Source: Bradyrhizobium oligotrophicum S58
Lineage (GTDB): Bacteria; Pseudomonadota; Alphaproteobacteria; Rhizobiales; Xanthobacteraceae
DNA length: 64,000 nucleotides
Assembly (NCBI RefSeq): GCF_000344805.1
Contig: NC_020453.1
Coordinates: forward strand, 1,736,001-1,800,000
Direction of reading: 5' to 3'
Part shown: positions 56,460 to 64,000 of the stretch, piece by piece
How positions within the stretch are numbered: the stretch's first letter is position 1
Layout of the letters: each line of letters begins with the position of its first letter
Made by a program: the position numbers and the translations under genes
Notes under the pieces: model-generated
Seen by the model: only the letters and a program-made list of their open reading frames with translations
What the model was told of the DNA's origin: nothing
Databases searched by the model: none

Positions 56460-56632
56460 GGCGCCGAAAACGACCATCGTCCAGCATACGATGCTTCGTA
56501 GCGCGTCTGAAGACAACGGTCTGATAAGTGCCCACTTGCGAACTGAGGCTTCGTACGACGTCTGAACCGGCCGACGCGAACTCATGGCGATGCCGTGAAA
56601 CGCACTGTTCTTCCCTCTTTTCCAAGGTTTGC

Positions 56633-57823
56633 ATGGCCACCGATTCACCTGAAATGCCAAAAGTCCTCGTTGTCGAGGACGAAATGATGCTGCGTATGCG
56701 GGCGGTGGATATTGTGGAAGATGCCGGGTTCTCTCCCGTGCAAGCCGTCGACGCCGACCAGGCGCTCTCTATTCTCGAATCGCGCTCTGACATATCGCTC
56801 CTCTTTACCGATATTCAGATGCCCGGCAGCATGGATGGGCTGAAGCTCGCCCACGCGGTGCACGACCGCTGGCCCGCCATCAAGATCATTTTGGTTTCCG
56901 GCCAAGTTGAGCCTTCCGACGCAGATAGGCCCCAAGACAGCCGCTTCTTTGGCAAGCCGCTAAGCAATGCCCAGATGATCGCCGAACTGCAGGCGATGGT
57001 CGGTGCGGGCGCACTGACGACGATTCCAGACGCGTCTCTGTTGCCGACAGATAAGAACGGCTACAGCCCGGAGGCGATCGAACTTGAGCGAATATCCGCT
57101 CAGGAGGCCGCGCTCTCCGCAGAGAACGATAGCCTTCGCCTCTTGCTTGAGCAGGCCAATATCGATGCCAAGGCCTTGCTCACGCAGTCCTCAATCGATG
57201 CAGAGGAGCGCGATGCCGCAGACAAGTTGCAGAAGCTGATCGTGGGCGAACTCCATCATCGCATAAAGAACAATCTCGCGACCGTGAGCGCCATCGCGTC
57301 GCAAAGCTTTCGGACCACGACCAGCATCGAGCATGGGCAAAAGGCCATGGAAGGCCGGTTGCTGGCGCTATCGCGCGCGCATGATTTGCTGATGCAAGTC
57401 AGTTGGTCGAATGCCAGCCTTACCCGCACCGTGAGCGGCGCAACCGAGCCGTTCGACAGTCAGGGAAACAGACGGTTCCACTTCAATGGGCCGGATATCA
57501 AGGTGGCTTCGAGTGCCGTAATTGCCCTCGCCATGACGCTCAATGAACTTTGCACCAACACGATAAAATTTGGTGCACTATCAACCCCCGCTGGCAGCGT
57601 GGAAGTCGCTTGGAAGATAGATGAGGACAAGCAGCGGCTTTGCCTGACGTGGACGGAACGCGGAGGTCCGCCCGTTCGGCCGCCTACGCGAAGCAGCTTC
57701 GGGACGCGCATGATGCAATCCCTCGGTCAGCAGCTGCATGGCCAGGTGCAGCTTTCTTATGAACCGGCCGGTTTGATCTACTCGCTGGATGTACCGCTCA
57801 GCTCAATCATCGCGAAAGCTTGA
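56633..57823 (+). CDS. Hybrid protein: receiver domain plus HWE-family histidine kinase
   Basis: The 396-residue protein has an N-terminal receiver (VLVVEDEMMLRMRAVDIVED, phospho-Asp in LLFTDIQMPGSMDGLKLAH) and a C-terminal HisKA_2/HWE kinase: LIVGELHHRIKNNLATVSAI with the acceptor His, then ALAMTLNELCTNTIKFGALS and VAWKIDEDKQRLCLTWTERGGPPV in adjoining parts. HWE kinases are abundant in alphaproteobacteria, often in light or general stress signalling. The receiver nearly repeats that of the lone receiver at 55392. The ATG at 56633 is used; 56654 is an alternative. Confidence 0.87.
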   Translation: MATDSPEMPKVLVVEDEMMLRMRAVDIVEDAGFSPVQAVDADQALSILESRSDISLLFTDIQMPGSMDGLKLAHAVHDRWPAIKIILVSGQVEPSDADRPQDSRFFGKPLSNAQMIAELQAMVGAGALTTIPDASLLPTDKNGYSPEAIELERISAQEAALSAENDSLRLLLEQANIDAKALLTQSSIDAEERDAADKLQKLIVGELHHRIKNNLATVSAIASQSFRTTTSIEHGQKAMEGRLLALSRAHDLLMQVSWSNASLTRTVSGATEPFDSQGNRRFHFNGPDIKVASSAVIALAMTLNELCTNTIKFGALSTPAGSVEVAWKIDEDKQRLCLTWTERGGPPVRPPTRSSFGTRMMQSLGQQLHGQVQLSYEPAGLIYSLDVPLSSIIAKA

Positions 57824-57911
57824 GCCAAGTCGTCGATCCGGTTCTCAAGTATGTTGAACAGGCTCGAGAACTGAGCGCAAACGAGATCTTATCGCCTTTC
57901 GGATCAGTCAA

Positions 57912-58649
57912 ATGATAACGATTAAATTGCGCGCGCTGGTAATGACGATCCTTCTCGCAACCATTGGAGCCGCAAGCGCCAAGGCGGAGTGTGAGATCGC
58001 CGACGCCAAGCTGGAAGAAGCCATACAGCAAAATCCCAAGCTGCGTGGTCCCGCCAATAGTCAGTCGGTTCGCGATCTCAGAAGTTTGCGGGATGCCGCA
58101 TTCACGCTCCGATCCTACGGGCGTCAGGAGGACTGCGAGCGTCTTCTGGCAAACATCCGCGAATTGATAGCCGGGCCGCCGATGGGCTCGTTGGGCGGCA
58201 ATGACGAGGAAGAGGCCGATAAGCAAAACCTGGCGCGCGAGCCGAGAGTTAAACGCGGAGCGGCGCAGGGCAGTCGTGACAAGAAAGAAGCGAGGCCGCT
58301 TTCAAGGATTGATGAACTCACCCCCGGCTTGAGGACGGACGAAATGATCGGAGCGGAGGTCCGCAGCTCCGACGACAAAATTGTCGGCGAGGTTAGAAAT
58401 ATCGTTTTCGGCACCAAAGATGGCCGAGACTACGCGATCGTCGCTTCTGGCGGCTTTTTCACAACGGGTAAGGACAGCATCGTCGTGCCGATCAAATCGC
58501 TCAAAGTGACGCAGGATCGGTCGAGCTTCTTTCTTCCGATTTCCAGAGAGATCGTGAAAACTGTGCCACTCATGCCTGATCAGGACTATTCGTGGCTGTC
58601 GGATAAAAAGTGGCGCAGCCACAACGATGGGTTTTTTCAAGGACGCTGA
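57912..58649 (+). CDS. Secreted PRC-barrel domain protein
   Basis: The 245-residue protein has a signal peptide (about 1-24, ending SAKA), a helical middle part with charged residues (about 30-140), and a C-terminal PRC barrel (about 140-225): MIGAEVRSSDDKIVGEVRNI, DYAIVASGGFFTTGKDSIVV. PRC-barrel proteins often bind RNA or act in photosynthetic reaction centre assembly; a secreted form is of unknown role. The start at 57912 is the first ATG of the signal peptide. Confidence 0.75.
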   Translation: MITIKLRALVMTILLATIGAASAKAECEIADAKLEEAIQQNPKLRGPANSQSVRDLRSLRDAAFTLRSYGRQEDCERLLANIRELIAGPPMGSLGGNDEEEADKQNLAREPRVKRGAAQGSRDKKEARPLSRIDELTPGLRTDEMIGAEVRSSDDKIVGEVRNIVFGTKDGRDYAIVASGGFFTTGKDSIVVPIKSLKVTQDRSSFFLPISREIVKTVPLMPDQDYSWLSDKKWRSHNDGFFQGR

Positions 58650-58835: not shown

Positions 58836-59738
58836 TCAAGCGGCTAAACACCCGAGTACGTCTGCTCGCTCGAGCGTAGACCTCAGTGCCTCGTCCGACA
58901 CATGAGTATAAATCTCGGTGGTCGCAATACTCGAATGACCGAGCAGCCGTTGAACAAACCGGATGTCCACGCCGCGCTCCATCAAGAGAGTTGCAGCAGT
59001 ATGCCTGAGCATATGCGGTGTAACCCGGCGTCCGTTCTTCTGCTCATATTGACGACGCAGCGCGAGCCGCATCGATTGAGGTCTTAGTGCGGCGCCTCGG
59101 CGGTTGAGAAATAGATTTCCGGCAACACGTCTGTTCTCACGATGCCATGCCAGAAGCCCAAGGAGATCAGCTCGGAGCGAGGGATCCGATATGTAGACCA
59201 TCCGCTCCCGTGCACCCTTCCCGTATATGCGGATCGCTCCCCCATCGGCCACGACGTCCTGAATCGATATTCGGCATAACTCTCCAACCCGAATTCCCGT
59301 CGCGATCATCAATCGCGCTGCGACAAACGTGTGGGAGGCTTTAGCGCTTCCTAATTTTGGTAGGGGAAAGCTTGCCAGAAGCATCGATACCTCGGGTCGG
59401 GACAAGGATCGCGGCAATCTTTTACGCTTTGGAAGCTGGAGCTGCCATTTCGCAAAGGGATCTGTAAGGCTTCCAGTCTTGGCCAGCCGTCTTGTGAACG
59501 CCCGCAGACATGCAAATCGACGCCGGACCGTACCGAGTGCGAGCTTCCTGCGCTCAAGCAAGTCTACGAGATATGTCGCGAGCGTGTCTTCATTGATTGA
59601 AGACACAAGCGGATCTTCTCGCAGGAACCGGCCGAACTCCTTGAGGTCTGCCGTATACGCCGCGATCGTGTGCGGGGAGAGCTGCCTTTCGATAGCGCAG
59701 TATCGCAGAAATTCGTCCGCCGCATTGCTGATGCGCAT
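58836..59738 (-). CDS. Tyrosine recombinase (integrase, XerC/D-like)
   Basis: The 300-residue protein has an N-terminal SAM-like core-binding domain (YCAIERQLSPHTIAAYTADL) and a catalytic domain with all key residues: Arg in GIRVGELC, Lys in YGKGARERMV, HxxR in THMLRHTAATLL (here PHMLRH), the second His in RLLGHSSIATT and the nucleophilic Tyr in EIYTHVS. Two XerC/D proteins normally serve dimer resolution, but this one is beside a low-GC block, so it is probably the integrase of an island. The start at 59738 follows GGAGGGG; a longer frame upstream lacks support. Confidence 0.9.
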   Translation of the reverse strand: MRISNAADEFLRYCAIERQLSPHTIAAYTADLKEFGRFLREDPLVSSINEDTLATYLVDLLERRKLALGTVRRRFACLRAFTRRLAKTGSLTDPFAKWQLQLPKRKRLPRSLSRPEVSMLLASFPLPKLGSAKASHTFVAARLMIATGIRVGELCRISIQDVVADGGAIRIYGKGARERMVYISDPSLRADLLGLLAWHRENRRVAGNLFLNRRGAALRPQSMRLALRRQYEQKNGRRVTPHMLRHTAATLLMERGVDIRFVQRLLGHSSIATTEIYTHVSDEALRSTLERADVLGCLAA

Positions 59739-59862
59739 GGCACCCCTCCAACGCTCGCACCCTACATTTTGGTTCAAGACTACGTCAGCGCCGTAGGGTT
59801 GTACCGGCTAGGTTGGTTAACTGCGCGACCGCGATCCTAGCGATCGCGCCTCAGCGACGGCA

Positions 59863-59878
59863 CATAACTCGGAATTAT
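59863..59878. promoter_or_regulatory. 16-bp inverted repeat, left copy, flanking the GNAT/2OG block
   Basis: CATAACTCGGAATTAT occurs here on the plus strand, 47 bases before the GNAT ATG, and occurs again in inverted orientation at 62172-62187. It is a near-palindrome (ATAA outer arms and central CTCGGAA), so it resembles an operator for a dimeric regulator. Alternatively it marks the ends of a transferred segment. Confidence 0.5.
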
Positions 59879-59924
59879 CATCCTGAAGCACGCAATCGCA
59901 GTTGCAGAATTGGTCATTGCACCA

Positions 59925-60395
59925 ATGTCGATAGCCTACGATAGCGACGAACCGGAGCGCGTCAGCGCCTTGTTCCGAACGATTGTCGACGCACTGCCGT
60001 ACTACAATGAAAGAGCAAAGGCCTCGGCGATATCTAATTACTCCGCCGGTCGACTTCGTCAGAGTGCGTCAACAGATTCAAGCTCGATCCTTGTCGCGCG
60101 CTTCGATACTAGCCTTGTTGGATTCGCCATAAGCAATTTGGATGATGAGACGATCTGGCTGTCTTGGTTTGGCGTGGATCCTGTCTATAGAAGGCGAGGA
60201 ATTGGTGATCGGCTGCTGCAAGCGCTCGATCAACGCGCGCTCTTAACGGGAACGCACAAGCTATGGTGCGATTCACGGACTGACAATGCGGAGTCGAAGG
60301 CAATACTTGCTGGTAATGGATTCCGGCAGATTTGTACCATACCGGACCATTGGTATCGCCAGGATTTTATCCTATGGGAAAAGCGCGTCGGCTGA
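59925..60395 (+). CDS. GNAT-family N-acetyltransferase
   Basis: The 156-residue protein has the acetyl-CoA-binding pattern WLSWFGVDPVYRRRGIGDRLLQ (R/Q-x-x-G-x-G/A form) and the typical C-terminal NAESKAILAGNGF motif. It acetylates a small molecule or protein of unknown identity. The ATG at 59925 is used; an upstream TTG at 59910 would add five residues. It overlaps the next gene by 22 bases. The gene is in AT-rich DNA unlike the rest of the window. Confidence 0.85.
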   Translation: MSIAYDSDEPERVSALFRTIVDALPYYNERAKASAISNYSAGRLRQSASTDSSSILVARFDTSLVGFAISNLDDETIWLSWFGVDPVYRRRGIGDRLLQALDQRALLTGTHKLWCDSRTDNAESKAILAGNGFRQICTIPDHWYRQDFILWEKRVG

Positions 60396-61312
60396 TACTC
60401 CTGGCGCTCAAGAAGCGCGCGCTCTTGCCCATGCTAGCAACCACGGTTGCTATCATCGGCAGTATCTCTGCTGTTCTGGGAATCGTCGATGTCCATTTCG
60501 GACTTTTAGGTACATCGGCTCTAACCCTCGTGGCATTTATTCTGTCAGGGACGTTCCACTTTCGGAAGCTTGGAATCCCGCAAGTCGCGGTCGACGATGT
60601 TATCGGGCCTGCGGAGCAGCCCACTTCGTACATTTTGCATTGCCCGTGTGATATCAAGCTAGCGACAGAGGCAAGTGAACTTGCTGAAGAATGCTACTCG
60701 GGTAGTATTACAATCGAGGCGGCAACGTTCGAGCAACTCCGCGTCAAGAACTCTCTCATTCTATCGTGTTTGACGGACCTTCAGGGTCAATTTATGGGGT
60801 ATTTCGACGTCATTCCGCTGCGCGAGACATTTGGAGAGTCTCTTCTGCGAGGCAACGTCACGGAAAGTCAGATCACACATGAGGACGTTCTCTCCCCGGC
60901 GGAGATGAAAACGTGCAAGTATCTCTTTGTTTCCGGCATTGCCGCCAAGCAACCTGATTCGTACCTCGGCCGGCGCAGTGCGAGCGTTCTCGTTTGGGCG
61001 CTTCTGAAATATTTGGATAGGCATTATGGGCGTTCAAACCCTCTGGTATTTGCGCTGGCTGCGACAGAGGAAGGTGACAAGCTATTGCAGCGATTCAAAC
61101 TTCAGCTGGCGCCCGGAACATTAGCTCGACGCGATCGCTATAGACTGTATTCGCTGGCACTTTCCCACGACGAAATTATTCGGCGACTCGCGTGCGTTCC
61201 GAACTGGGAGCAGTTGTGTGATCTGCCCTGGGGCGGGAACGCGGGTAAGCAAAGGAAAATTGGACGGGGGCGGCCAGTCCTACCAGAGACTAAGGCGTTG
61301 AGCTTGGCGTAG
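60374..61312 (+). CDS. Membrane-anchored GNAT-like protein
   Basis: The 312-residue protein has two N-terminal hydrophobic segments (about 17-38 and 41-61, for example ALLPMLATTVAIIGSISAVL and FGLLGTSALTLVAFILSG) and a cytosolic part (80-300) that has the spacing of a GNAT fold: YFDVIPLRETFGESLL, YLFVSGIAAKQPDSY, VLVWALLKYLDRHY, FALAATEEGDKLLQRFKLQL. The acetyl-CoA loop is degenerate, so activity is uncertain. It overlaps the GNAT gene by 22 bases and is convergent with a 2OG oxygenase gene 14 bases away. Confidence 0.6.
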   Translation: MGKARRLILLALKKRALLPMLATTVAIIGSISAVLGIVDVHFGLLGTSALTLVAFILSGTFHFRKLGIPQVAVDDVIGPAEQPTSYILHCPCDIKLATEASELAEECYSGSITIEAATFEQLRVKNSLILSCLTDLQGQFMGYFDVIPLRETFGESLLRGNVTESQITHEDVLSPAEMKTCKYLFVSGIAAKQPDSYLGRRSASVLVWALLKYLDRHYGRSNPLVFALAATEEGDKLLQRFKLQLAPGTLARRDRYRLYSLALSHDEIIRRLACVPNWEQLCDLPWGGNAGKQRKIGRGRPVLPETKALSLA

Positions 61313-61326
61313 TGATCCGATGGCCG

Positions 61327-62193
61327 CTATTGATCGGAAATCCATTCCGAGAGACCGAAGCGCTCAGAGTTCTTCAGCACTCGTTCGCCAATGTTCACGC
61401 TTCGATTGATGTCAGATAGTCGCCAAGGGCGACATCGCGCTGGATTCATGTCGGCAAAGAAGAGGATTGACCGGCGGCTTGAGTGCGATTCAATCTTTCG
61501 AACTCGATGGTAGGCTGGGCTGATCGCTCCGGCCGTCATAAGCCACAGAATTTCACCCGCCATGACTAGAATATGTCGTCCCGAAGGCGTTACTGGCCTG
61601 AAATCGCTTCCCGATTGAAGTTCGAGGCCCGCTTCGGCGATTGACATAACCGTAAGAAGGCAACCATCCTCGTGTAAGTCATTTATAAAGTCAGCTTTCG
61701 TGAGAGATGGCCGCGAGTAGTTGAATTGAAGCAAGGACCATTTTTTGAACGAGCCGAGAAGATCTGTCTGATTGTCGTAGTTTCCAAATCGGACTGCGAG
61801 TCTTGAGGCAATGTCTTCTGCTACGCGCTCAAAGCTGTCGAAGACTGGCAGCATCGCAATGTGCAGCGAGTTTGCTAGTGTAGACAGCTTTCTCTCTGGG
61901 CTGGGTACACGGTAGCTCACCGTGAACGATTCGACCTCATCGAGGTGACTGCTCGAGGCGGAGTATTCAGTCCCGTAGGGACGATAGCCGTTATCAAGAG
62001 GAAGTCGGTCGCGAAGCTTACTTGTTAGATCGGCCTCAAAGAAGCGATCTCCGGCTTCAAAGGCCGGCTTTATGAGATCCTGGAATGCACCCGGGACTTC
62101 CAGGATCGCAAACCCCTCCCTCTCAATCTCGTCGATGCATCCGTCACTTATCGGGAGGTCGGAAGGCATGCATAATTCCGAGTTATGCTTCAT
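61327..62193 (-). CDS. 2-oxoglutarate/Fe(II)-dependent oxygenase (isopenicillin N synthase-like)
   Basis: The 288-residue protein has the Fe-binding HxD in FINDLHEDGCLLTVM, the distal His in SPAYHRVRKI, and the RxS motif of 2-oxoglutarate binding in HSSRRSILFFAD, in the order and spacing of IPNS-like oxygenases. The N-terminal domain matches DIOX_N (EIEREGFAILEVPGAFQDLI). It would hydroxylate, desaturate or cyclise a small molecule. The start at 62193 has GAGGG 8 bases upstream; a second ATG at 62169 would place the 16-bp repeat at 62172 upstream of the gene. It is convergent with the GNAT pair. Confidence 0.83.
   Translation of the reverse strand: MKHNSELCMPSDLPISDGCIDEIEREGFAILEVPGAFQDLIKPAFEAGDRFFEADLTSKLRDRLPLDNGYRPYGTEYSASSSHLDEVESFTVSYRVPSPERKLSTLANSLHIAMLPVFDSFERVAEDIASRLAVRFGNYDNQTDLLGSFKKWSLLQFNYSRPSLTKADFINDLHEDGCLLTVMSIAEAGLELQSGSDFRPVTPSGRHILVMAGEILWLMTAGAISPAYHRVRKIESHSSRRSILFFADMNPARCRPWRLSDINRSVNIGERVLKNSERFGLSEWISDQ
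62172..62187. promoter_or_regulatory. 16-bp inverted repeat, right copy
   Basis: ATAATTCCGAGTTATG, the exact reverse complement of the copy at 59863-59878. If the oxygenase gene starts at 62193 it covers its codons 3-8; if it starts at 62169 it is immediately upstream. Both copies point into the three-gene block. Confidence 0.5.
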
Positions 62194-62746
62194 TGGAATG
62201 CCCTCTATGCTATCGCCTGGAGAGCAAAAAACAATCCCTCAACCGCTAATTTAGATGACCAACCCGAGGGGCAGTGCGACCGCCCTAGATCGGCCTCGCG
62301 ATCGCCCCCATAAACCAGTAAGCCAGAATGCGCTTGTGGAATTACGGTGACGCTCCACGGCAAGGCCTTCTCTCCCTCCGTTCCTGCCCGACGGGCAATT
62401 CCCATATCCCCGTCATGCGCCAACTGCCCGTCGAGCCAGTTTGTCGCACGCGCTGGGCTTGCCACGTCGGGCAAATCACCTCGATGATCCCGGCCATCCC
62501 GTTCGCGATGAAGAGGGGCGTTTCGGCCGATCGTCACGAGGCGTAGCAGCGGGGAGCGGTGGACGTATCGGGCTTGGGGCTCTGCATCTCGCGGGCCGGC
62601 GAGCAAGTCTGGTGCGGACGGTCAAGTCGTAGGGTCCTGGCATCCCGATGCCGATGTCCCGCGCAACGCGCGCAAGCGCGTTGTCGCGAACGGTGACCAG
62701 AAAGCCCGGCGCACCGGGGAGACTACGAAGCAGCCGTAAAACCATC
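62194..62746. other. Intergenic region, no recognised gene
   Basis: About 550 bases before the structured repeat at 62747. Frames here have no family resemblance; the sequence looks like the degenerate part of a Bradyrhizobium intergenic repeat, and GC content rises back to the chromosomal level. Confidence 0.35.
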
Positions 62747-62852: not shown

Positions 62853-63167
62853 CCTCTGATCGAAGGAGGGGCACGACCCCCGTAAACCTCGGGCGCAATT
62901 GCGCTGCGAGACAACATTGTGCTGTCCGCCGAGCAGATCGGCGACGGCGTCACCGCCGGCCGGGATCGAACGGCTGCGTGACCCGCGCGGGGCACCGAGC
63001 GATGATTATTCGGGCACCGCTTGCCACATCTGCTCCACTTTGTCGGCGCAAATCCGCCCCGGATGAATCCCTAAAACTCAGGTAAGCCCTTCAAAAGTAA
63101 GATTTTGGCAATCAATCAAACGCTAACTAAGGTTACCAAGGGCTCAACGTCATCTGGAGACTTGAAC

Positions 63168-64000
63168 GTGAGCGAGCAAAAGGCCGAACAGACCAGCCTT
63201 GGCGTGGCCAGTGCTGAGACGGCGCCGAAGACCTCCGCGTCCCCCGACGTTACCGATAACGCCGTGCCGGCGATCGCACCGGTCGCACAGGCGATGATCT
63301 CGCCCGATCACGAAGCGCCGGCGGCCGATCGGCCCAGCTTCGACGAGAAAGCCGCGGTCATCGACGTTCCCGCCGTGGCGCCCGAGGCCAAGCCCGCGCT
63401 GGTCGTCGTAGAGGCCGCGAGGGCCGAAACCAAGTCTGAGTCCAAGCCTGAGAGCCCGCCCGCGGCGGCCAAGGTCGAGCCGGTCAAGGCTGACGTCACG
63501 AAAGCCGGGCAGGCGACGTTGGAGCCGGAGGTCGGCAAGGCGGAGCCCAAGCGGCTCGACCTGGTCAAGTCCGACAAGACCAGGTCCGACAAGGTCAAGC
63601 CGGAGACGGCCAAAGCCGAGGCGATCAAGACCGATGCGATCAAGCCCAGTGTTGCCAAGGCGGACCAGCTCAAGGCCTCTGTCGGCCAGGGCACGCCCGG
63701 CCAGAGCGTTCCCAAGCCGCCTTCGACGATCCTGGATCTGATCAGGACCGAGCCGGTCAAGTCGGAGCCGATCAAGACCGCCGTGGCGGGCGACCTCCTC
63801 AGGGTCGAAACGCCCAAGCTGTCGGCGCTGGCCACCAACGCTCCGAAGATCGGCCCGATGGCGACCACCGCGTCCAAACCCGAGGCGCCGATCAAGCCGG
63901 ACGCGCCGAGCAAGCCGGCGGCCGCCGCGAAGCCGGAGACCGTGGCGAAGACAGAGACCGTGGCCAGGCCAGAAGCTGTGGCCAAGCCAGAGGTGTCCGT
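63168..64000 (+). CDS. Lys/Pro/Ala/Glu-rich repetitive protein, N-terminal part (end outside window)
   Basis: The frame from GTG 63168 is open to the end of the window (277 codons) and is not closed by a stop. It is made of repeated short units of the type PVKAD, KPETAKAEAIK, EPIKT, AKPETVAK, with few hydrophobic or aromatic residues and no signal peptide. The composition recalls TolA- or histone H1-like linker regions. GGAGA lies 7 bases before the GTG. No fold or function can be assigned; a folded domain may follow beyond the window. Confidence 0.62.
   Translation, partial: MSEQKAEQTSLGVASAETAPKTSASPDVTDNAVPAIAPVAQAMISPDHEAPAADRPSFDEKAAVIDVPAVAPEAKPALVVVEAARAETKSESKPESPPAAAKVEPVKADVTKAGQATLEPEVGKAEPKRLDLVKSDKTRSDKVKPETAKAEAIKTDAIKPSVAKADQLKASVGQGTPGQSVPKPPSTILDLIRTEPVKSEPIKTAVAGDLLRVETPKLSALATNAPKIGPMATTASKPEAPIKPDAPSKPAAAAKPETVAKTETVARPEAVAKPEVS

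Follow-up and report, generated by a model that had tools for sequence, protein, structure and literature searches.

In the G- and C-segment switches of phages, which depend on the serine recombinases Gin and Cin, opposed coding sequences are alternately read from a fixed promoter, and in integrons an integrase gene lies beside a site and a promoter that reads into exchangeable cassettes. To our knowledge, known invertible gene switches either exchange variants of one function (flagellins, tail fibres, specificity subunits) or toggle neighbouring genes. Among the excerpts of the literature consulted here, phage tail-fibre inversion is mentioned in one source (PMC8987985), hsdS inversion systems appear in another (PMC12324116), and for the gut Bacteroidota intergenic invertons are described that often carry a promoter and switch the neighbouring genes (PMC11892184). 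The excerpted account of pXerC/D (pdif) modules in Acinetobacter gives plasmid sites with a 28-bp core and a 6-nt spacer, on which XerC and XerD act, the active pairs having the same spacer (PMC9947245). Here we describe a recombinase-linked cassette locus of Bradyrhizobium oligotrophicum S58, which lies in a stretch of 64,000 nucleotides (hereafter the window; positions 1,736,001-1,800,000 of NC_020453.1, the single 8.26-Mb contig of its genome), and compare it with these systems.

This locus is probably best explained as an invertible platform with one slot, whose cassette expresses either of two units. A dedicated XerC/D-like tyrosine recombinase would recombine two short inverted sites, whereby the segment between them flips. 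The segment would comprise two tail-to-tail transcription units, each starting at or just inside a site, and whichever of them faces the fixed right flank would be read from a promoter-like element located there, so that a clonal population would divide into cells of two kinds, with enzyme states that exclude each other. Between these sites, one two-unit cassette could moreover give way as a whole to another. It is about as likely as not that this constitutes a new class of either/or element, whose one recombinase would draw two-headed cassettes from a common pool into the slot and would also flip the one in place before a single fixed promoter; each cell would then make one of two unrelated enzymes, the range extending from acyltransferases, methyltransferases, and oxygenases to SIR2-type proteins like those of defence systems, and the population would hedge between them. 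The features named in an initial annotation of this DNA all exist, namely the recombinase, a GNAT gene overlapping the gene for a membrane protein, a convergent gene for a 2-oxoglutarate (2OG) oxygenase at a distance of 14 bases, and two inverted 16-mers that match exactly, and its description of an integrase-linked block bounded by inverted copies of a near-palindrome is confirmed. That the three genes serve one co-expressed pathway is unlikely, as they form two opposed units that swap places.

Judging from genome sequences, inversion at these sites can be regarded as almost certain in the family as a whole and as very likely in the window. Genomes, contigs and the stretches read from them are denoted below by G, C and L numbers, G000 being the genome of the window. 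Besides G000, the membrane protein is carried by 2 of the 195 genus genomes, G146 and G167, and 20-kb stretches of the three were aligned. In G167 the equivalent of window positions 59862-62187 is reversed with respect to G000 (92.2% identity over 2326 bp), with the recombinase side and the right flank in direct orientation. G146 is arranged like G000, and its segment is inverted with respect to G167 (97.1% over 2327 bp), the direct and inverted alignments overlapping by precisely the 17-bp repeat. Inverted recombination sites therefore bound the segment and are themselves the inversion breakpoints.

For related cassettes, both orientations occur within one strain in the assemblies of G015 and G149. 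The contig ends of G015 overlap by 21.5 kb (positions 1-21500 against the last 21.5 kb) with 0 mismatches and indels only, as expected for an untrimmed circular chromosome, and inside this overlap a 1748-bp cassette is 100% identical yet inverted, both breakpoints falling in the 24-bp repeat. In the draft genome G149, whose site is of a variant form, contig C390 ends in 124 nt, the site among them, that are an exact repeat of the flank next to the other site (124/124), and contig C47, from the recombinase side, runs on into the same segment end (110/110); therefore, one segment end is joined to both flanks. Other draft contigs end exactly at the site (G034 and G171), at the end of a slightly longer repeat (G180), or 76 nt past the site (both contigs of G151), which are the breaks that a population of mixed orientation would produce.

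The site is specific in its distribution. Exact matches to CATAACTCSGAATTAT number 28, 14 per strand, in 12 of 265 Bradyrhizobium genomes, and a reversed-pattern control had 0 matches in the same genomes. Twenty-four of the copies make up 12 inverted pairs, 1.7-3.6 kb apart (two of these pairs are the G015 overlap copies), and the remaining 4, in G034 and G151, are no more than 76 nt away from a contig end, so that the initial annotation's concern about occurrences of the 16-mer at many unrelated places proved unfounded. When the recombinase loci are considered (n=19, G015 counted once and G1396 added), 11 adjoin an intact inverted pair (G000, G146 twice, G167, G004, G044, G108, G187, G047, G015, and G1396), with exactly one inverted pair of this site per intact locus. 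Another 5 have a site at or near a contig end (G034, G171, G180, G151, and G149), the sites of G171 and G149 being of the variant form and that of G180 differing by one base. At 2 loci (G055 and G064) a contig end or an N gap precedes any site, and 1 (G070) lacks a site. The variant site was found in 0 of 45 further genome draws, a set outside which G149 and G171 lie. Common sites measure 16-24 bp and follow the pattern ATAA-N7-TTAT with a 7-bp centre, the 24-bp form reading TGCGCATAA-TTCCGAG-TTATGTGC on one strand. This form resembles the core of E. coli dif; a search for a host dif with such arms (GCATAA-N6-TTATGTTAA, up to one mismatch) gave no match in the genome of the window. The features of the window element are listed in Table 1.

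Table 1. Features of the cassette platform and its resident cassette (positions in the window)
Feature	Position	Strand	Details
XerC/D-like tyrosine recombinase, presumed invertase	58836..59738	-	300 aa; Pfam PF00589, E 9.7e-34
Fixed left spacer, recombinase to left site	59739..59862	.	Conserved blocks inside platform groups, by eye
Left recombination site CATAACTCGGAATTAT	59863..59878	+	15-bp core 59864-59878; exact inversion breakpoint in G167 vs G000, G146
Invertible segment	59863..62187	.	2325 bp, GC 0.527
Soluble GNAT acetyltransferase, first gene of left-hand unit	59925..60395	+	156 aa (161 aa from TTG 59910); PF00583, E 1e-13
Membrane protein with GNAT-like domain, second gene of left-hand unit	60374..61312	+	312 aa
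2OG-Fe(II) oxygenase, right-hand unit, faces fixed promoter-like motif	61327..62169	-	280 aa; PF03171
Right recombination site, inverted copy of left	62172..62187	-	Exact 16-mer match
Fixed right flank directed into segment	62188..62252	-	TTGTTT 62234-62229, 16-bp spacer, TAGCAT 62212-62207

Linkage suggests that the adjacent recombinase catalyses the flip. Its residues include what we take, by eye, to be the catalytic R/K/HxxR/H/Y pattern, and it scores 197.7 bits with the NCBIfam model for XerC (cut-off 335.15) and 186.8 with that for XerD (cut-off 329.6), being under both and hence not qualifying as a housekeeping XerC or XerD. At E<=1e-60, relatives occur in 17 of 195 genomes of the genus, 3 of 297 of the order, and 1 of 299 of the phylum, each count including G000. 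Pairwise alignments delimit a common platform that begins shortly after the recombinase stop, reaches 66-85 bp outside the right site, and is largely independent of the neighbouring genes; in the window its homology stops at about 62252 (R+66). In the 11 loci with an intact pair, the repeat lies 112-185 bp from the point where the recombinase alignment starts.

Different cargo is carried between these sites across the genus. Type A, with a GNAT plus a membrane GNAT-like protein opposed to a 2OG oxygenase, is found in G000, G146, and G167. Type B consists of a GNAT whose C-terminal part has two or three predicted hydrophobic stretches (GNAT-TM) opposed to an S-adenosylmethionine-dependent methyltransferase, and it is carried by G044, G047, G108, G187, G015, the second copy of G146 and, to judge by eye from its two ends, G151; its GNAT is assigned by one weak Pfam match (G187, E 0.003) and the BLASTP likeness of the others to G187. 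In type C (G004), a 379-aa protein without a family match is opposed to a pentapeptide-repeat protein with one predicted hydrophobic stretch. For the 379-aa protein a pyridoxal phosphate enzyme was considered and dismissed, there being no match in Pfam (E<=0.01) or among PDB sequences. Type D (G1396) has an AAA_16 ATPase and a 462-aa protein opposed to an ATP-grasp ligase, and type E (G149, variant site) has a 1242-aa SIR2-AAA protein opposed to a 2OG oxygenase plus a carbamoyltransferase. The G1396 cassette (L097, 6199-9805) is 3.6 kb long and its ATP-grasp protein is D-Ala-D-Ala-ligase-like; the G149 segment (L108, 4851-11157) is 6.3 kb long and its SIR2-AAA protein is STAND-like.

Whatever the cargo, the units are laid out tail to tail in 12 of 12 oriented loci. 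In types B and C, which are pairs of single genes, the opposed genes overlap by 24-143 nt at their 3' ends. An ATG straddles the end of the core in 12 of the 24 open reading frames (ORFs) directed inward, and in the window an ATG at 62193, in the right flank, reads in frame with the oxygenase.

Cassette exchange, as a matter of history, is well supported by sequence comparisons. G004 and G108 have the element at the same place in the chromosome, where the left side aligns at 94.7% over 7.1 kb, and on platforms with 95.4% identity on the left and 91.9% on the right; their cargo is unrelated, and the alignment breaks off and restarts at the sites. Conversely, G000 and G146 share type A cargo with a synonymous distance (dS) of 0.12-0.30, whereas the synonymous sites of their recombinases are saturated. 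Identity per 100 columns between these two is 0.53-0.77 in the recombinase and left spacer, 0.85-0.98 in the cargo, and 0.72 and 0.43 past the right site, the steps coinciding with the sites. The window recombinase has 88% identity to the G146 enzyme beside the methyltransferase cassette and 73% to the one beside the oxygenase cassette. Because of this mismatch between cargo and recombinase similarity, cassette and platform histories must differ. The exchange itself may be carried out by the recombinase.

The right flank contains an inward-directed motif, TTGNNT and TAGNAT separated by 15-16 bp, in 13 of 14 aligned flanks as judged by eye (12 of 13 if G015 is counted once). Its conservation and position suggest that it might be a promoter, and shared descent of the flanks explains part of that conservation. 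If it is a promoter, G000 and G146 would express the oxygenase, and G167 the acetyltransferase pair. Among type B loci, the methyltransferase faces the motif in G146, G044, G187, G047, and one G015 copy, and the GNAT-TM does so in G108 and in the other G015 copy. In the three type A genomes, the ratio of nonsynonymous to synonymous substitution (dN/dS) is 0.10-0.25 for the GNAT, 0.11-0.16 for the membrane protein, and 0.29-0.36 for the oxygenase; such low values in both window units would be expected if both states were in use.

Several observations weigh against a recombinase-driven switch with one read-in side. The right flank on contig C35 of G151 is the one of the 14 without the motif, and a scan of positions 59700-62400 with a sigma-70 consensus, which is of the E. 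coli type, does not flag the right-flank motif and found 1 promoter-like site against a shuffle mean of 2.0. Two distant recombinases from outside the genus (G900 and G911) have no inverted pair in the stretches read (L098 and L099), the plasmid-borne relative in G070 (52% identity) lacks a site, the genomes G055 and G064 contain no site match at up to one mismatch, and G180 holds a third, unpaired copy with one mismatch. The arguments from G015 and G149 rest on assemblies, in which mis-assembly or true duplication could mimic part of the picture, and flipping in the window's own strain is deduced from the assemblies of relatives. Finally, homologous recombination in the flanks, instead of the recombinase, could have moved the cassettes. 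Beside these points may be set that the G070 locus (L049, on plasmid NZ_CP088284 of Bradyrhizobium septentrionale), where no inverted site occurs within 8 kb on the upstream side, may be an empty or different platform.

The same data can be read in other ways. The locus might mainly be a gene-capture element comparable to a single-slot integron, in which inversion is a by-product of cassette entry and exit and no switching takes place. Near-identical platforms with differing cassettes, cassettes of one type on different platforms, and element edges found immediately beyond the recombinase and the right flank irrespective of the adjoining genes would all suit such an element. We nevertheless find it somewhat unlikely, since both orientations in single strains suggest frequent flipping, since the tail-to-tail layout, the starts at the sites, and the one-sided inward motif suit a switch best, and since the cargo gene pairs with computable dS have dN/dS values of 0.04-0.36. 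A further reading places promoters on both fixed flanks, so that a left-side promoter keeps both units on and inversion alters only their relative level or timing. The left spacer does contain conserved blocks, seen by eye, within platform groups; however, they are conserved within groups only, whereas the pair resembling -35 and -10 elements on the right is conserved across platform groups, and the left spacer presumably houses the promoter of the recombinase, which makes constant expression of both units quite improbable. As for the 16-mers, the initial annotation had suggested comparing them with regulator boxes, and a near-palindrome at the start of both units might indeed be an operator through which one regulator co-controls two convergent units. 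They are inversion sites instead: the breakpoints in G167 lie within the 16-mer, exact copies in the genus occur solely as inverted pairs or near contig ends, beside the recombinase family, and no regulator gene is seen in the platform, so that we give this idea hardly any credence.

A role in defence or competition, also raised for this block, fares differently for different cassettes. For the window, PADLOC matches none of its four proteins, and the same holds for the GNAT-TM and methyltransferase of G108 (the only type B pair tested), the pentapeptide-repeat and 379-aa proteins of G004, the 462-aa protein of G1396, and the carbamoyltransferase of G149. Elsewhere, the SIR2-AAA protein of the variant-site cassette in G149 matches models for pAgo-associated SIR2, pAgo, and, weakly, ThsA, which makes it a candidate for a phase-variable defence-type gene, and the AAA_16 ATPase of G1396 matches PADLOC mad8 (E 4.4e-05). 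That the cassettes in general, including the window pair, are phase-variable anti-phage or competition modules appears unlikely to us, and the invertible one-slot platform with two alternative units remains the preferred explanation.

As to what the window cassette encodes, the product of 60374-61312 has a GNAT fold, and its GNAT-like domain resembles, among many others, the GNAT-like domain of CurA and the N-acyl amino acid synthase FeeM. The oxygenase belongs to the 2OG-Fe(II) superfamily by its residues (HxD...H and Arg), its Pfam match, and fold matches to the double-stranded beta-helix; H166, D168, H221, and R232 are invariant in 35 sequences, the first three presumably being the iron ligands and R232 the 2OG-binding Arg. 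Its structural model has a predicted local distance difference test (pLDDT) score of 90.2, and the nearest folds are thymine-7-hydroxylase and ethylene-forming enzyme. Relatives of the oxygenase adjoin carbamoyltransferases in G149 and in a Bryobacterales metagenome-assembled genome (MAG), which suggests a possible small-molecule tailoring in which hydroxylation would be followed by carbamoylation. More generally, the cargo enzymes may modify a small molecule or a surface component.

When genome contigs were scanned, query A3 found one relative, the oxygenase of the Bryobacterales MAG, and the pattern-limited scan with query A1 found none. In this MAG, genes for a SET-domain protein, a 2OG oxygenase (39% to that of the window), and a carbamoyltransferase follow in a row (L017, 4358-7437), and no site-like pair was noted among the 25 longest of 73 inverted repeats. 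Outside its own genome, the membrane protein has weak matches in the GNAT domain only in 3 of 385 class and 1 of 296 family genomes. Distant GNAT-like relatives elsewhere in the class stand alone (L009, 1468-2112) or before a C-terminal region that is hydrophobic as judged by eye (L013, 1420-2520). Among the metagenome matches listed, relatives of the membrane protein and of the oxygenase share 16 identical contig sizes (51 vs 78 distinct sizes), and from these sizes alone it seems that the two have long been paired and are widely distributed in metagenomes. Relatives of the recombinase and of the membrane protein have two contig sizes in common, 665633 and 2454, by eye among the matches listed. 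A viral origin was considered and rejected, as queries A1 and A3 had no relative among the viral contigs searched and the site gave 7 single matches there, which were taken as chance. Spread by plasmids was rejected as well, since the membrane protein was unmatched in plasmids and the only plasmid match to the recombinase was the one relative that lacks the site.

With regard to its surroundings, the segment is part of a longer low-GC stretch beginning at about 54 kb, and its GC content of 52.7% corrects an earlier estimate of about 43 percent, which was too low. Still within this low-GC stretch, positions 56528-58649, on the left side of the element, encode a response-regulator/HWE histidine kinase hybrid and a PRC-barrel protein, which by homology fall outside the platform. 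To its right, a long low-complexity ORF rich in Lys, Pro, and Ala (63105-63998) runs off the window. In G167, a 1.4-kb insertion relative to G146 lies about 0.36-1.8 kb right of the right site (L016); it shares 89% identity with DNA situated a few kb to the right of a further cassette locus (L043) and is possibly a mobile element.

That no described system has this composition, as the initial annotation had stated, agrees with the literature search: among the matches listed, which did not include a survey of gene-altering inversions across bacteria (Milman et al. 2023), no paper describing this system appeared, and queries combining Bradyrhizobium or rhizobia with inversion and phase variation found no paper. 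If the proposed reading is true, phase variation and gene capture of the integron kind would come together in a platform that alternates between two unrelated enzymes and accepts other pairs in their place, and the contig breaks at the site in the drafts of G034, G171, and G180 would be explained. The paired cargo families are leads to small-molecule or surface chemistry.

Integrons are similar to this platform in their integrase gene, the adjoining site, and the promoter, here a promoter-like motif, that is directed into exchangeable cassettes. In contrast to integrons, the platform has one slot and no array, its sites are inverted, and its cassette consists of two opposed units. The recombinase scores 112.6 bits with the integron-integrase model TIGR02249, below the cut-off of 265, and the intact loci show one inverted pair each rather than an array with directly oriented attC, other attC-like sites not having been searched for. 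With the Gin and Cin switches it has in common an invertible segment, opposed units, and a fixed read-in side. Those switches and, as far as the excerpted source on them goes, the hsdS systems exchange variants of one function, whereas here unrelated proteins are exchanged and the recombinase is XerC/D-like. Compared with invertons, as they are described in the excerpts of PMC11892184, short inverted repeats, reversible inversion leading to two states, and a recombinase gene often located nearby are shared; the differences are that here the genes are inside the segment, which is mostly coding, that the conserved inward promoter-like motif lies outside it in the fixed flank, and that the cargo is exchangeable. 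An outward promoter may nevertheless be present within the segment. Similar to the pdif modules in the excerpted account (PMC9947245), the platform has oppositely oriented Xer-type sites, reversible inversion, and spread. In place of a 28-bp core with a 6-nt spacer and the XerC and XerD of the host, its sites are of 16-24 bp and have a dedicated recombinase gene beside them. Unlike pdif modules as described there, the platform of the window resides on the main contig, has its own recombinase, and combines sites having a 7-bp centre with a promoter-like motif in the fixed flank and a single resident cassette of two units.

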